From Dictyostelium firmibasis (Eukaryota; Evosea; Eumycetozoa; Dictyosteliales; Dictyosteliaceae), in the NCBI GenBank assembly GCA_036169595.1, contig CM069769.1:2136001-2200000 (forward strand): a stretch of DNA of 64,000 nt, in the 5' to 3' direction. The notes beneath the pieces are model-generated. The model was not told where the DNA came from, searched no databases, and saw only the letters and a program-made list of their open reading frames with translations. Positions within the stretch are counted from its first letter, which is position 1. The number at the start of each line of letters is the position of its first letter. Below are positions 32,815-52,997 of the stretch, piece by piece. The position numbers and the translations under genes were made by a program.

Positions 32815-34313
<1,499 letters not shown>

Positions 34314-39390: not shown

Positions 39391-41305
<1,915 letters not shown>

Positions 41306-41529
41306 AAAAAAGTTTTATTCTTTGAACTGTTGCTTTTGGTTTAGTATTCTGCTAAAAGGAAAAAATAAATTTTAATTTATTGTTATACAAAAAAAAAACA
41401 AAAGATATTTAAAAAAAGGAACAATATTTTTTTTTTTTTTTTTTTGGTCCAAACTATTTATTTTTAAATTGATTATTTTTTTTTTATTTTGGTATTTATT
41501 TAATCATTTTTTTTTTTATAAACTCTATT

Positions 41530-42860
41530 TAAGAAATAGAAAATAGAATTAACAATAAAGAGTTTAATGCGGATAATGAACAAACAAACAACCGAATTGA
41601 AATTGAAATAAATAAAATTATAGAATCAATCATAGCAACACCAGAAACACTATTAGGATTGATCAAAGTTTTGAGAATATATGATAGTCATAAAGCAAAT
41701 GAATCAATTAGAATAGAATCAACAATTTATTTTAATTCCTATCATCAACATAAATACCAACATTATTTCGATAAAAAAGGATACATGAATTTCATTTTAA
41801 ATATATTCTTTGATACTTCATTCAATGTTTTTAATCAAATTAGTAATATTTGTTCAAGTTATATTAGATATAAACTTTATAAAAAAAATCATTAATGATA
41901 AAAGAGTAAGTTTTTCATTTAATTCTTTTTTATTATCATTTTATGAAAATGTTGTATTAATCGTTCAAATAAAATTTAATAATTTAATAATTGGTTCAAA
42001 GACTTATATGAGAATGATAGGGATCAATTAGAAAAAAGATTTCATATTATGAATGAAGATATTTCACCAAATCAGTATATTATTAATCATTTATATAGTA
42101 TGGTGTATGATGGAATAAAAGATAACTCCTCTGATTTAATAGAATTAGGATATTACTATGATAGGACATACTATCATAATAATTTAGAGTTCTAAAAACT
42201 TAAAAACAAATTGTAATAATAATAATAATAATAATGGTAGTAATTTAGAGAAGAAGTCATTTATTATATCAGATATTATAGTTGAAAAAATAGTTAGAGA
42301 TTCATTACGGTATTGTGGTGATGGGATGGATAAAGTCATTATAAATTATAATCTTTTATCATTTGCTTTGGTTTCAAAACAATTCTTTAAAGTATTATCT
42401 AAAATATTAAATGATGGATATTTTGAATGGAACAAATCAATGATTCAATTTAATGATAGCGAATTCAATTTAATTAAACAACCACCATTACACTTTGACT
42501 ATGATTCAATAAGATTAATACCATACTCAATTAATAAAGAGTATTTAGAATTATTATTCTCAAGAGTTCAATAATTCTGTATTAATAGTGATGAATATGA
42601 TTCTACTATAAATGATGGTTGCTCTAGAAAGTTTAAATCTCGTAAGAAATCCTTCGAAAAAGAAGAACTTAAATATAGAGAAGATATAAAGTCATCTGGA
42701 TATTTATCCACCACCAATGCCATCATTAAGAGTATCACTATCGGCACTACGGCAACAAGCTCGAGGTGGTCCACTTCCACAATAAAGGAAATTAAAACAT
42801 GTACATCAATAACACAGATATCAAAAGCACCATACAACATCTCCACCATACTAATTCAGT
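41530..42860 (+). pseudogene. Broken tandem copy of the F-box-like gene
   Basis: The sequence parallels the intact gene at 39391-41305 throughout. Lesions seen: no start codon (TAA just upstream of the first homologous codon); one extra A in the A-run at about 41880-41887, which shifts the frame just before the splice donor; a stop at about 42194-42196; and a TCA-to-TAA change at 42572-42574. The intron is short here and lacks the AAT expansion. The block 42245-42570 is almost identical to 40438-40765 (only scattered single differences), whereas the flanks are more divergent. That suggests recent duplication or local gene conversion. The end decays into unrelated sequence after about 42720. 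Confidence 0.85.
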
Positions 42861-43344
42861 TTCTGAAAAAGTAACAGTTTAAAATTTCAACAAAACATTT
42901 TATTTATTTAATTTTTTATTTATATATTGAGGATGTAGTTGAAGATGGAACTGTTGCTGGTGTAGTTGCTGTTAACTGATCTGAATTTGGTAGTTTATAC
43001 TCAGATTGCTAATAATAACTGAATTTGATTTCTTTAAGACAAAGTATGATCTATAATTTAATACTTTAAAAGAATTCATATAAAAAATAAATGAAAGACT
43101 ATTCCAACTATATCTTTGAATATGTGATTTTTTTTTAATAACCTCATCCAATTGGATGTGTTCGAATCTTGTTTTTATTTATTAATTATTTTTAATTTAA
43201 AGTTTTTTTTTTTCTGTGACCACGTTAATTCGTGGTATGACCAAGACTTGAACCAAGGCCATGGAGGCTGTGTTATTCTGTGTGAAACCACTATGATAAG
43301 CCCCCCCACGATATTATGTGAAATTAAGCTATATTAAATTTTTT
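42861..43344. other. Spacer with tRNA-like relic, left flank of the retroelement
   Basis: Contains the perfect palindrome 'catccaattggatg' at 43145-43158. On the minus strand (about 43315-43215) there is a tRNA-like stretch with a box-A-like 'tatcatagtgg' and a box-B-like 'ggttcaagtct'; the T stem and acceptor do not pair, so it is at best a dead tRNA. There is also a short hairpin, ccacg...cgtgg, at about 43220-43235. Confidence 0.4.
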
Positions 43345-43683
43345 TGTAATGAATAGCTATCGGGCAATATCACTTTCAATATCACTAATAAATATAATAT
43401 CTACATCTCAATATATCTCCAATAAATATCTAATTATTATAATAACAACTAGCGCTATAAGAAATATACAAGGAAAAGTAAACGCTCTATAGAACAACAT
43501 TCCAAAGGTTCCACGTTCCATCTTCATCACTATAAAAACCATAAATAATTTATAATAAATCATGCATCATTTTTTACACTATTTTATTTAAGTTACTTTT
43601 GTGTATAGATTTAATTATCTCTTTTAAAATACACTTTTAATAATTATTCTAATTAATAAATATATTAAGGAATAATTATTACA
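43345..43683 (+). repeat. 5' LTR (339 bp)
   Basis: Starts TGTAATGAATAG, ends AATTATTACA. It matches 52572-52910 base for base as far as I can see. A TATA-like 'actataaaaacc' at about 43531 may be the promoter. Confidence 0.96.
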
Positions 43684-43697
43684 TTGGCGACATCGCA
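43684..43697 (+). other. Candidate primer-binding site
   Basis: 'TTGGCGACATCGC' lies directly after the 5' LTR. The TGG would pair with the CCA end of a tRNA. The priming tRNA is not identified. Confidence 0.5.
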
Positions 43698-43823
43698 TTT
43701 TCGAACTTAAACGTCTTATATATTTTTAACTTTATATTTCAAAATTAATAATTTATTTTATTTTAAAAAAAAAAAAAAAAAAAAAATTTTTTCGAACTCA
43801 AAAAAAAAAAAAAAAAAAAAAAA

Positions 43824-44518
43824 ATGAACACAAATCATGATAATATAATTTTCACAGGGGATGGCAGAGGTTTATCATTCAATGCTTTCTTATCACTCTT
43901 GGCTCAAATTTACAACAAAAATACTAATGTATTAACCAAAGCTGAATTATTAAAAAGAATTAGGGGAGATGCACTAGATCTTGTGTCAGGTATGAATTCC
44001 GATGTATCAGCACAAGACATATTAGATGGATTAAAAGATACGTATAATGCAGCGGAACCAGATCAATTAGAAGAATTAATGAAATTGGTAGATACAAAAT
44101 TTCCCACACTCGAAATGGCAATTTCAAAATTTTTGGCAAAATGCACAAAATTAAATGAATCATTAAATGATAAAACAAAAGTATCATTATTTCTAAAAAT
44201 CATAGGAATAGAATTAGGTTTTGAAGTGAGAAAATCAGCTCCACAAAACATCAAAAGAGCCATAGAAATTGCGAGAACAATTGAGGCCAATTCAATTGAT
44301 CATATGGGAAGATCAATATATACCAACCAATTAACAAACAGATTACAACAAGACTATGTAGCTTATTATTATAATGACAATAATTCTCAAATAACTCAAC
44401 CATTTACATATTCAGTCACCACACCAATAAAACAAAACAGTTACGTTCCCAGTACTCCAATGAGCGCGGTTAACATATTACCACAAACCACTACAAACTA
44501 TCTTACCTTTCCACCCCT
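43824..44518 (+). CDS. gag: Gag (capsid part), cut by the nested transposon
   Basis: Opens with ATG after an A run and reads about 231 codons before the terminal repeat of the nested element; the frame continues to 44645 only through inserted DNA. The helix-rich sequence ('DLVSGMNSDVSAQDILDGLK', 'LMKLVDTKFPTLEMAISKFL') fits a gypsy-type capsid. The CCHC zinc knuckle expected at the Gag end is found on the far side of the insert (about 49105-49150), so the insertion splits capsid from nucleocapsid. Confidence 0.8.
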
Positions 44519-44555
44519 CCCCCACCCCCTAAATTTTTTGAAAAAAATTTTTACA
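44519..44555 (+). repeat. Left terminal inverted repeat
   Basis: Begins CCCCCACCCCC and ends TTTTTACA; imperfect inverse of 48931-48967. The C-run is striking in this AT-rich genome. Confidence 0.75.
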
Positions 44556-44712
44556 GGTGTGGGAAAATTTGCGCAATTTTTTTTTTCATTTTTTTTTTTT
44601 TTTTTTTTTTTCATTTTTTTTTTTCAATTTTATATAACACAATGAAATATATATTTGTTTTCGAAAATGTAATCATATATTAAAATTTTTTTAAATAAAT
44701 TATAAAATTTTA

Positions 44713-47700
44713 TTACAATATTATTATTTTAGTTTTACCTGGTTTAAAATCGATCGTTTTATTACCAAAATCACACAATAATACTTTTATGTTGTCTCTT
44801 CCTACCAATTGTTGAAATTTTGCAACATACCAGAAACTAGAAGGTAGGTGTCGATTTTTATCATCAATATATTCACCATTTTCATCACACACACCATTCA
44901 CAAACACAAACAACTTCTCATCAGGGAGCAATACATCTTTATTTGTGAAATTTAATTCAGTACGTGGCTTTGTTGAGATATGTGACGCAAGTGTTTGTTG
45001 ATATTCATTTTCACCTTCGCTATATATTATGATATAAATTATGATTTGAATAGTCATGTACACATACAATAATATTGTTAATTATAATTTATACTAACTC
45101 CATCAGTGATATATACATATATATATATATATATATAAACTATACTTACTTAAATTTTAATAGATACTCAATTTCACCATATATATCTGACCATCTATAT
45201 CCGATAATAGTTGCAGGCCAATATGATCGGTAGAATTGATTTTTACGTAGAAAAATGGATTCAACAATGCTTCCAACTGGTATTATTGATTTATTATATT
45301 TATTTTCTCTAGCAAAACATAATCGATATACTTTGAATAGTCTTAAAGTTAGTTCAAATGATTTTACATCTATAAGAGTGTATGTTGAATCGGGGAATCC
45401 CAAATATATTTGTTGGTCACCGATATTAAATGAACACTTCATATTATAAAATATTGTAGTAGTAGTAGTAGAAGTAGTTGCTGGTCTGGTAGCTGGTCTG
45501 GTGGTAGCTGATCTAGTGGTAGCTGATCTAATGGTAGCTGATCTAGTGGTAGCTGGTTTGGTGGCATTGGTAGTGGTAGTAGTGGTAGCAGGTCTTCTTG
45601 TTCTTGTGACAGCATTAGTAGTAGTAGTAGTAGTGGTAGTGGTAGTAGTAGTATTGGTTGGTGTTGATACTGCAGTCAAGGGTTGGGTTGGAGTTGTGTC
45701 ACAATCTCCATCAAAACATTCACCATCCAATAAATCATGGTCATTTGACATATCACCTAGTAATATTAAATTGATATCCAAGTTTGCATTATCATCTTCA
45801 TCATCACACGAATCAATGGTATACTCAAAGTATTCATCATCGTCATCGTCCGGTATGGATTCATTAAAACCATCATCATCATCATCGTCGTTAACTTCTG
45901 TAGTTGGTAATGGATTTGCTATTGAATTTGTTGGTTGGAATAGTGTTGTATATTCAAAATTATCAGGATTAAGATGTTTCTCTGAATATATTTTGTTTCT
46001 TGATGAAGTAGCCAACAAACCAGAGTAATCTTTTACAGTATGTGCAATCTTTGACATATAGTTAGTTCTTGTCATTTGTTGAATGGATGAATCTTCTGCA
46101 TCAGGTCCGTACCGATTTTTATTTGTAGCCCGATCCCAAATTAATTTATTCAAGTAATGTTTACCCTCGGTTGCAAAGTTAGCAAGACTTTCCACAACCA
46201 CATCAAACTCATCGCCCAACCAGTCTGCAAAATCACCCACATGACAAATAAATATATGGGTATATGTTGAAATAATTTCTCTTGTTGTTTGGTCTTTGTA
46301 GATTTCAAGGGCCAAATTACCAAATACAGATGAAAATGATAACCAACTATCAGAATCCACTCTTTTCTTTTTATTGGACAGTAATGTAATCAACGCAAAC
46401 ATTTGCTCCCAGAGCTTAGAAATCTGTTTATGGATAAGATTATATTGTTAATATATATATATATATATTCCCAACTATTATTACAATCAGAGTAAAAACA
46501 ATTACCTTTGATTTATGCGGATTTCTAGAATGTTTTTCGACAATCTCCATCAACTTTCTAAATTTAAATAGTATTCTTATTAATTCATTATACTTTATTC
46601 TAGACTTTGAAAAGTTGGTATGTAATTGGCCAATAGAACCATCAGAAGGTTTAATCAACTTGATCTTACATTTTTGTGTTAAAAATGCCTCCAACTCTCT
46701 CCTATACTCACTTTTACATGATGGATGTCCACTTATTCGAGTAACTTCACCATCTTCACAAATCAATTTAAAAAAGTGTTTTATCAACGCCTGGACCATG
46801 TGCAGAAAATCAGGAACTATTTTTTCTAAGGGTATCGGTAAAATTGGTCTACCTCTTTGTCCTCTATACTTGGCTTTCCCGGCATTTTCTGAACGTAGTG
46901 GTGGTGTGGTTTCATACATTTTGTAAATGTTACGGTATTGAAATTTTTTAAAAGTATTTATTTCATGTTTAGTACAGTAACACCATATACACCTGTATGT
47001 GGATTGCCTTTTCCATACAGTGTATAGGCCAAGGTAGTTGATCAGAAAAGCAAGATCAGCTACCAGTACAAATTGAAATGTATAATCGATGTTTTGGTTT
47101 GGTATTGGTGATTTAATTACAAATGAATTAAAGATGTTTCGACGATCACATTCCTTGGTCATTAATTTCAAATCTTTTTTCATTAGTTTTAGTTGTGGTG
47201 TAAGCATTTCTGGCTCTTCATTACCTTTGTATACCAAAAATTCATATGAATCATATGGTGATTTAGAAAGTGATGTTTTCTTTGAACCGTAAACCAACTG
47301 CATTGTTGCAATCACTTGAGATACGGACCCATTTCGTGTCATTGCAGCACCATCAACTCCCAAATGAACAAGAAATTTGTTTGGAGGTCTTTCGTTTAAT
47401 ATTGCTTGCTCTATCAAAGATTTTATTGGAATATACTTTCCAATAATGTTTGCTTCGGCTGTGTCGTTTGTAACATCCACAATCATTCTTCTAAAATGTT
47501 GCAACTCGATGTTACATCTTCTTTTCACTCTATTTAGCGAAAAACTGTTTGACATACGCATGCTAGATCTAAATGATTCCCAATTTTTATCAACTATTCC
47601 ATGTATCAACTTCATACATGCTACTGTTTGAATGTTCAGGTGACTTGAATCAATTAATGCAGTTTGATTTACCTCCAAACGATTCTGATTTCTTTCACGT

Positions 47701-48554
47701 AAAACCAACTCTTTACTACAACCTGGACAACCAACCTCTTCATTATTGGCCAAATCTAAATGGTGCTTTGTATCTTTTACATGTTTGGCAAAGTTTTTGT
47801 ATGAAACAACTACGTTACAACCTGTATGGATGCATGCCTTTCGCTGACGAATACCATCAACACCATTTTCATTTACAACCACTGGTGGAGTTATTTGCTG
47901 TCTTGGTGGGTTTGTATCATATCCTCTTTGAAGATTACGATTAGATGGAATAGAATAATACAAACAAACACTGCATTCCACTGTATGGTCGTTATTTATT
48001 GGATGAAGTCTTTTTTCGTGCTTGTTACGATAAATAGATTTTTTAAAACCTCTATCAACATCAGTATTATTGGCACAACCTTGGTGTCTACAAAAAAAAC
48101 GATTCAAATTATCATTCACTGTTCGAGTTGGTACTTCATCTTCACTTACATCAATATCTACTTCAACTTCAACTTCAACATCATCTTCATCATCATCATC
48201 ACCATCATCATCATCACCACCAACATTTGCAACTGGTACTCGACTTGTTGTTGGTTGTGTTGGTACCAGTAATTGAACATTTTCAAATTGCACTTGATTA
48301 GTTACTATTGGATGTGTAGGCGCAGGGTATGGAATATTATTTAAATGGCGATATGGGTGAAACCTTTGATTTGGAACGTAATTATCAGCAACCACGGCCA
48401 ACAAATTTAAATAGTTCTGATTCTGGTCTCCATTATTGTGTTTTTGGTTTCCATCATTCATACCACCACTCAAACCAACATTCAAGAAAAAGAAAATTAA
48501 AAAAATTATAATGGAATTCATCAAGAAAAAATATTTAGAAATATTTAGAAACAA
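44713..48554 (-). CDS. Three-exon putative transposase
   Basis: Exons 48554-46506, 46423-45150 and 45019-44713 join in phase to give about 1209 residues; the true start could be a later Met (48521 or 48461). Three zinc-finger-like motifs come first: 'CRHQGC...HEKRLH', 'CSVC' and 'CIHTGCNVVVSYKNFAKHVK' then 'DTKH', followed by 'CPGC'. A probable RNase H-fold core follows, with 'VHLGVDGAAM' (Asp near residue 401), 'VLVADLAFLINYLGL' (Asp near 500), a Cys motif 'CIWCYC' (near 525) and 'IVPDFLHMVQALIKHFFK' (near 582). That D...D...C-x2-C...D-x-LH order recalls large transposase-like proteins of animals and fungi. An acidic and Thr/Ala-repeat region lies at about 870-1000. The C-terminus contains a possible Tudor-like or chromo-like segment. 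All frames are intact, so it could be expressed. Function is inferred. Confidence 0.75.
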
Positions 48555-48930
48555 TAAAATTGTGGAACTATAATTATATGATAATAATACTAAAACAATT
48601 AAATAATAATATACTAGGGAAAATTAATAAAAAATAGTTAAAAAAAAAAAAAACTGAAAACAAACCAACCGACAATAATTTGGGCAAATTAAAACAAATT
48701 TTTCAAAAAAAAAAAAAACAATCTAATCAAACACCAACTCACAAATCAAATCAAGTTTATTTTAATCAAATCAAATCAAGTTTATTTTAATCAAATCAAA
48801 TCATTATTTTTCATTAAAAAAAAAAAATTAAATAAAGTTTAATGCACCTCATATTTATTACTATTAATTTTTTTGAATGAGAGGGAAACTACGAATGTTA
48901 GGTTGAATATGCAGTTTTCTTAGTGTGTCA

Positions 48931-48967
48931 TGTAAAAATTTCAATTGAAAAAAGTGGGGGGTGGGGG
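48931..48967 (-). repeat. Right terminal inverted repeat
   Basis: Ends GTGGGGGGTGGGGG on the + strand; imperfect inverse of 44519-44555. The motif 'ggaaactacga' occurs both inside (about 48885) and just outside (about 48995) this end, which leaves the exact boundary open. Confidence 0.7.
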
Positions 48968-49008
48968 TATTTTCCCACATTAATTTACCCCCACGGAAAC
49001 TACGATAA

Positions 49009-52559
<3,551 letters not shown>

Positions 52560-52560
<1 letters not shown>

Positions 52561-52571
52561 AAGGGGGATAA
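52560..52571 (+). other. Polypurine tract before 3' LTR
   Basis: 'aaagggggataa' directly precedes the LTR, the usual site for plus-strand priming. Confidence 0.7.
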
Positions 52572-52910
52572 TGTAATGAATAGCTATCGGGCAATATCAC
52601 TTTCAATATCACTAATAAATATAATATCTACATCTCAATATATCTCCAATAAATATCTAATTATTATAATAACAACTAGCGCTATAAGAAATATACAAGG
52701 AAAAGTAAACGCTCTATAGAACAACATTCCAAAGGTTCCACGTTCCATCTTCATCACTATAAAAACCATAAATAATTTATAATAAATCATGCATCATTTT
52801 TTACACTATTTTATTTAAGTTACTTTTGTGTATAGATTTAATTATCTCTTTTAAAATACACTTTTAATAATTATTCTAATTAATAAATATATTAAGGAAT
52901 AATTATTACA
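52572..52910 (+). repeat. 3' LTR (339 bp)
   Basis: Same length and sequence as the 5' LTR; its end lies 15 bp before the tRNA-Thr gene. Confidence 0.96.
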
Positions 52911-52925
52911 TTTTTAAACAAAAAT

Positions 52926-52997
52926 GGCTCCTTAGCATAGTGGTATTGCGCTTCCCTAGTAAGGAAGAGGTCATGAGTTCGATCCTCATAGGAGCCT
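52926..52997 (+). tRNA. tRNA-Thr (anticodon AGT)
   Basis: A 72-nt cloverleaf with perfect stems: acceptor ggctcct/aggagcc, D stem gca/tgc, anticodon stem cttcc/ggaag with loop c-T-AGT-a-a, and T stem atgag/ctcat around ttcgatc. There is no intron. Box A 'tagcatagtgg' and box B 'gttcgatcc' are good pol III promoters. A TTTT terminator follows at 52997-53000. It decodes ACU, and ACC after A-to-I editing. It is the evident target of the retrotransposon immediately upstream. Confidence 0.97.

Follow-up and report, generated by a model that had tools for sequence, protein, structure and literature searches.

The CMCT (CACTA/Mirage/Chapaev/Transib) group of DNA transposons is described by features of both its transposases and its ends: a C(2)C and an H(3-4)H motif, located between the second aspartate (D) and the glutamate (E), are common to EnSpm/CACTA, Mirage, Chapaev and Transib elements, and the wider group mostly has CA..TG ends and target-site duplications of 2-5 bp (PMC12730594). 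Full-length CACTA elements have been described with a second open reading frame (ORF; PMC4158355), and a TransibSU element with a 5-bp target duplication (PMC4411706). In Dictyostelium discoideum, the Tdd, DDT and thug DNA transposons encode transposases that a review presents as without significant similarity to known ones (PMC5633606), and a study of Dictyostelium firmibasis searched for transposable elements using D. discoideum Repbase entries (PMC11193728). The subject of this work is F1, a transposon family represented by a nested copy in a 64,000-nucleotide stretch of the D. firmibasis genome (hereafter the window; G000:C5:2136001-2200000). F1 is very probably an autonomous cut-and-paste CMCT transposon, with CACTA-like ends and duplications and a DDE transposase whose core is related to RAG1. 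Among the matches listed, no description of F1 was found in CC-licensed literature, either on CACTA/EnSpm/RAG1/DNA transposons with Dictyostelium or on Transib/RAG1/CACTA/Chapaev.

Ends and insertion site of F1

A search of the genome (31,455,843 bases in 12 contigs) with the segment 44519-48967 yielded 123 matching pieces, among them four full-length F1 copies, both numbers being lower bounds. The copy in the window has the following features:

44489..49017, whole transposon of family F1, 4529 bp, with a minus-strand gene; termini shared by four full-length copies whose flanks differ, and an empty site
44489..44512, plus strand, terminal inverted repeat, 3' of the gene, CACTACAAACTATCTTACCTTTCC; terminus shared by 8 of 9 scanned left-end loci
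48995..49017, minus strand, terminal inverted repeat, 5' of the gene, CACTGCAAATTATCGTAGTTTCC; terminus shared by 11 of 15 scanned right-end loci
44519..44529, plus strand, subterminal C-rich block CCCCCACCCCC, read from the sequence; the outer motif of the original prediction
48956..48967, minus strand, subterminal C-rich block at the opposite end, CCCCCACCCCCC as read on that strand, from the sequence
44487..44488, plus strand, left copy of the target-site duplication AC
49018..49019, plus strand, right copy of the target-site duplication AC

Comparison of the full-length copies gives the left terminus as CACTACAAACTATC and the right terminus, reversed, as CACTGCAAATTATC; on the forward strand the latter reads ...GATAATTTGCAGTG, and the flanks diverge beyond both termini. 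The original prediction had set the ends at 44519 and 48967, with a C5-A-C5 outer motif within 37-bp inverted repeats as the terminus. These positions lie too far inside, because the copies agree for a further 30 bp on the left and 50 bp on the right, and the element is thus 44489-49017. The C5-A-C5 blocks are subterminal, just inside the true F1 ends, and the inverted repeat itself is imperfect and about 23-24 bp long. The expectation that other copies would share the ends of the element was confirmed at the loci counted above; a twelfth right end among the 15 loci belongs to a related family, B.

In the window copy, AC closes the left flank and AC opens the right one. An uninterrupted second copy of the surrounding retroelement, at G000:C5:2227666-2228097, reads ...ACCACAAACTCCC...; when aligned to it, the two window flanks share exactly 2 bp. 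This empty site bears out the claim that a DNA element is nested in a retrotransposon and supplies the exact junction that had been sought in an uninterrupted DGLT-A-like copy; it also rules out the reading of the segment as part of an ordinary full DGLT-A element with no insertion, one of the two outcomes, together with an absence of other copies sharing these ends, that would have overturned the prediction. The host has these features:

43345..52912, plus strand, DGLT-A-like host retroelement with long terminal repeats (LTRs) at 43345-43685 and 52572-52912; gag-pol interrupted by F1
52926..52997, plus strand, tRNA-Thr, about 13-15 bp downstream of the retroelement end

The host is of Ty3/gypsy type, with RVT_1, RNase H and rve Pfam matches in the ORF at 49009-52560, and in the second retroelement copy gag and pol, read by eye, form one continuous frame across the empty site. 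The distance from DGLT-A to the tRNA gene downstream of it is given as 13-33 bp (PMC5633606), and the host fits DGLT-A in its domains, its single gag-pol frame and its distance from tRNA-Thr, a likeness judged from the description of DGLT-A. Its LTRs are identical over 341 of 341 bp, as had been noted from the sequence, which indicates that the insertions of the retroelement and of F1 are both young, F1 being the younger.

Copies, duplications and recent movement

Relative to the window copy, the copy at C5:3414786 is identical over 4529 bp (0 mismatches, 0 gap positions), that at C2:1328801 differs by one indel (0 mismatches, 1 gap position), and that at C5:735316 shows 6 mismatches and 62 gap positions. 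Each full-length copy sits at its own site, with different flanks and its own 2-3-bp duplication. Since these flanks differ, the near-identity of the copies reflects recent transposition and not regional duplication: F1 has moved recently. Together with the nesting, this upholds the earlier view that the element is younger than its DGLT-A-like host and was recently mobile.

A second empty site is provided by the copy at C2:1328801 (C2:1328801-1333250), which is inserted in a family B transposon; B copies without the insert (L049, L050) show that ATC was duplicated, compared with AC in the retroelement. Over eight F1 end pairs (for the four broken copies, we assume which ends belong together), the duplications measure 3, 2, 3, 2, 2, 2, 1 and 0 bp, that is, 2 bp in four pairs and 3 bp in two, with none longer; of 40320 re-pairings of the F1 flanks, 56 reach six or more pairs with a duplication of at least 2 bp. 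The F1 family produces both 2- and 3-bp duplications. The four full-length copies are situated in chromosome arms, and the remaining four F1 left ends lie in repeat clusters (at 4.6 Mb on C1, at the end of C2 and near the start of C6), these being judged against the DIRS1 regions of PMC11193728, the description of which does not name chromosome 6. Separately, five fragments that are 80-84% like the F1 5' end lie within about 40 kb at C6:1177182-1217008, four of them being L042, L043, L045 and L046.

The proposed transposase gene

The single gene on the opposite strand, in three exons with clean joins, was correctly foreseen in the original prediction. It is organized as follows:

46506..48521, minus strand, exon 1, residues 1-672; zinc-finger-like Cys/His pairs (by eye), D390, D489 and CxxC 511/514
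47352-47354, minus strand, codon of the proposed catalytic D390, exon 1
47055-47057, minus strand, codon of the proposed catalytic D489, exon 1
46424..46505, minus strand, intron 1, GTAATT...CAG; family B has an intron at the homologous position
45150..46423, minus strand, exon 2; HxxxxH 728/733, E758, acidic and Thr-rich stretches
46166-46168, minus strand, codon of the proposed catalytic E758, exon 2
45020..45149, minus strand, intron 2, GTAAGT...TAG
44713..45019, minus strand, exon 3 with the stop codon

The product is 1198 residues long, GT/AG borders are present at both introns, and the frame is open across both joins. Six places match exon 1 from end to end with no stop, five in frames of 727 residues and one in a frame of 689. 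The modelled proteins of F1 (48459-48521) and of family B (L050:318-380) start with a hydrophobic, signal-peptide-like stretch that is odd for a nuclear enzyme, and that may be an artefact of AT-rich sequence ahead of the true start.

The motif residues of F1 are D390, D489, C511/C514, H574, H728/H733 and E758. The CIWC (511-514) and HIFICH (728-733) motifs lie between D489 and E758, as described for CMCT transposases, and are invariant in all four of the families found in this genome (F1, B, C and D). The ends, CACTAC...GCAGTG, and the duplications of 2-3 bp in six of eight end pairs, two of them with empty sites, also agree with the group, and as in CACTA/EnSpm elements CAC..GTG is found at both ends and CACTA at one. 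CACTRC ends and 2-3-bp duplications bring F1 nearest to CACTA; it is called here a CACTA-like CMCT element and not a proven EnSpm, a placement that would follow from ends, duplications and motifs.

Similarity to RAG1

In vertebrates, antibody genes are rearranged by the enzyme RAG1. Core profiles of F1 and its related families were searched against 177,635 PDB sequences. Profile A1, which covers the core before the homologous intron in three families, had ProtoRAG RAG1L as its best match (E 0.17), and A2, the whole core of three families, had V(D)J recombination-activating protein 1 (3jbw; E 2.7e-4). With A3, built from four families, RAG1 or RAG1L sequences took the first nine places (E 1.3e-5 to 0.018), and an unrelated protein followed at E 0.29; the reversed A3 alignment, used as a control, gave one unrelated match (E 0.55) and no RAG1. 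The A3 alignment to RAG1 starts just before CxxC, and the two line up in register at CxxC, at HxxxxH and around the last E, positions that we take to be zinc and catalytic residues of RAG1. These matches suggest that the F1 transposase is distantly related to RAG1, an affinity with the RAG1/CACTA/Transib group that the original prediction did not mention.

Behind the classification stand direct observations of the ends and target duplications, of the nesting, of an open gene with its ordered motifs, of nearly identical copies and of a profile similarity to RAG1. A number of points weigh against it. Pfam scans of the F1 protein gave no transposase match, and one F1 end reads CACTG, not CACTA. 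The rows of the profiles were spliced by hand, and A3 was the third of three forward searches; its RAG1 match consists of two stretches that are individually weak (E 0.26 and 0.74). The match also leaves D390 and D489 outside: since it begins near CxxC, the assignment of these two residues rests on their invariance and order. A single-sequence PDB search with exon 1, which does not contain the HxxxxH and E part, found no RAG1, and searches of the genome with the Transposase_21 and RAG1 models gave no match, a weak negative in that 14 controls were also silent. Among the target sites, a 2-bp duplication is missing at C2:5067070/5057989 and at C6:141284/155146, two end pairs that are retained among the eight, and family B insertions in the F1 copies at C6:95351 and C6:143313 show only 1-2 bp, in repetitive or diverged sequence.

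Related families in the same genome

Family B (L050; 1111 residues when spliced) is 45% identical to F1 over aligned positions (473/1056), has CACTGC/CACTAC ends, and carries introns at both F1 intron positions as well as one extra, its last acceptor having been chosen to fit the alignment. Families C (L049/L053, C5:4164200-4172400) and D (L066, C1:4617300-4622800) are 26-27% identical to F1 in the core. The order D, D, CxxC, conserved H, HxxxxH, E is kept in all four families in alignment A3, and D, D, CxxC, HxxxxH and E are invariant in the three families of A2. Among viral contigs, 55 pattern matches were obtained, none of which proved to be a relative by tblastn.

F1 and B have inserted into each other: besides F1 in B at C2:1328801, a B element in the F1 copy at C2:5060831 (C2:5060831-5065450) is flanked by a duplication of AT, which becomes ATC when the terminal C is assigned to the target. 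Of 41 family B left ends, 35 lie in chromosome repeat clusters, in contrast to the full-length F1 copies in the arms.

The ends of families C and D, to judge from position, seem to be CCCTCCG. Of the 11 longest C matches, 10 are followed by such an end at a distance of 2.2-2.5 kb, the last match being near a contig end, and family D has one about 1 kb after its gene. A family C element is apparently inserted in an (AAT)n intron of a B copy. The 30-base CCCTCCG end is present at 64 places in the genome (at most 2 mismatches), mostly in repeat clusters, compared with 0 for the control. L067 (C6:149582-154165), with C-type ends and no detectable transposase core, lies inside an F1 copy with no duplicated base, and so does a shorter element with C-type ends (C2:4878014-4880048; L062, L063) inside a second F1 copy, uninterrupted F1 sequence serving as the empty site for both insertions. 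If the C transposase moves CCCTCCG elements, two branches of one transposase lineage would differ in whether they duplicate their target.

A broader, tentative reading, which we regard as possible and rather doubtful, is that social amoebae harbor a diverse, unclassified CMCT lineage (F1, B, C and D), with a core putatively closer to RAG1 than that of the usual CACTA elements, and with one branch having CACTRC ends and 2-3-bp duplications and the other CCCTCCG ends and no duplication. Such a lineage, if real, would stand between CACTA and Transib/RAG elements as an amoebozoan intermediate, and would give a classification to 'orphan' Dictyostelium DNA transposons.

Alternative explanations

The alternative that survives best is one of identity: F1 could be the counterpart, in a sister species, of a D. 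discoideum DDT or thug family, known but unclassified, for which we see a chance a little short of even. The lack of a Pfam transposase match in F1 is what would be expected from D. discoideum transposases unlike known ones; this explanation is compatible with the CMCT classification, and F1 may accordingly be a sister of a known, unclassified Dictyostelium family.

A second possibility is that F1 is a Transib- or RAG-type element proper, its RAG1 similarity reflecting Transib membership and not the wider CMCT group. All nine A3 matches with E <0.02 are RAG1 or ProtoRAG RAG1L, and the F1 ends start with CAC; the core itself matches as a Transib/RAG core would, save for the two D residues outside the match. 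To our knowledge there is no CACTA transposase structure in the PDB, so that RAG1 could rank first by default. The 5-bp duplication at a TransibSU element (PMC4411706) disfavors Transib for F1, where none of the eight end pairs exceeds 3 bp and six show 2-3 bp, and we consider this explanation unlikely.

It is highly improbable that segmental duplication or gene conversion, and not transposition, produced the identical copies. The 3' flanks at C6:105573 and C3:4912934 are identical, which indicates that some broken copies were duplicated together with their surroundings; against this, the four full-length copies have different flanks and duplications of their own, two with empty sites. Least probable of all is that F1 resembles Ginger/Tdd-4 and uses a retroviral-type integrase: TDD-4 and TDD-5 do have a Gypsy-integrase-like transposase (PMC2836005), but an integrase-type enzyme is disfavored for F1 by the absence of rve/integrase from the three transposon frames scanned with Pfam, although the adjoining retroelement gives an rve match, and the motif order and RAG1 profile matches of F1 also speak against it.

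Proposed mechanism and significance

For F1 as a CACTA-like CMCT transposon, we infer catalysis, fold, DNA binding and present-day activity from the features above. The zinc-finger-like N-terminus would bind the terminal and the C-rich subterminal repeats, and a predicted RNase-H-like core (D390, D489, C511/C514, H728/H733 and E758) would cut at CACTRC, the element being inserted into breaks staggered by 2 or 3 bp. The window copy would have landed in a DGLT-A-like retroelement already present upstream of tRNA-Thr, splitting its gag-pol frame in two.

A link between a dictyostelid element and the RAG1/CACTA enzymes would point to how elements of this kind probably move and where they belong in transposon evolution, and would bring a recently mobile element of a social amoeba into the RAG-related group. 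The occurrence of 2- and 3-bp duplications within one family also bears on how these enzymes set the stagger.

Other features of the window

A tandem pair of related genes lies at 40154-42874, the second copy being 94% identical over a 300-base repeat and split over several reading frames. A GC peak of 0.44 at about 32900-34300 resembles a minus-strand elongation factor 1-alpha gene (recognized by eye).

Comparison with known systems

Among Dictyostelium elements, DDT, thug and Tdd resemble F1 in belonging to the same host group and in having transposases described as unlike known ones (PMC5633606). Plavaka B, a fungal CMCT lineage, likewise has duplications of 2 or 3 bp within one lineage, but its ends read CATCA..TGATG (PMC12730594), the comparison being made by description only.

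RAG1, ProtoRAG RAG1L and Transib share with F1 a profile similarity that runs from CxxC via HxxxxH to the last E, whereas F1 differs from them in its 2-3-bp instead of 5-bp duplications, in its CACTRC ends and in the weakness of the overall similarity; no second gene was recognized in F1, whose smaller ORFs were not searched for RAG2.

CACTA/EnSpm elements are like F1 in their CAC...GTG ends, with CACTA at one end, in their 2-3-bp duplications, in their multi-exon transposase and in a C(2)C and an H(3-4)H motif that follow the second D and precede E. F1 departs from them in having one CACTG end, in that 2-bp duplications (four of eight end pairs) are commoner than the 3-bp ones expected of CACTA/EnSpm (two of eight), in having one recognized gene where a second ORF is described in full-length CACTA elements (PMC4158355), and in giving no match to the Pfam Transposase_21 model, which is not a defining feature in the literature examined.

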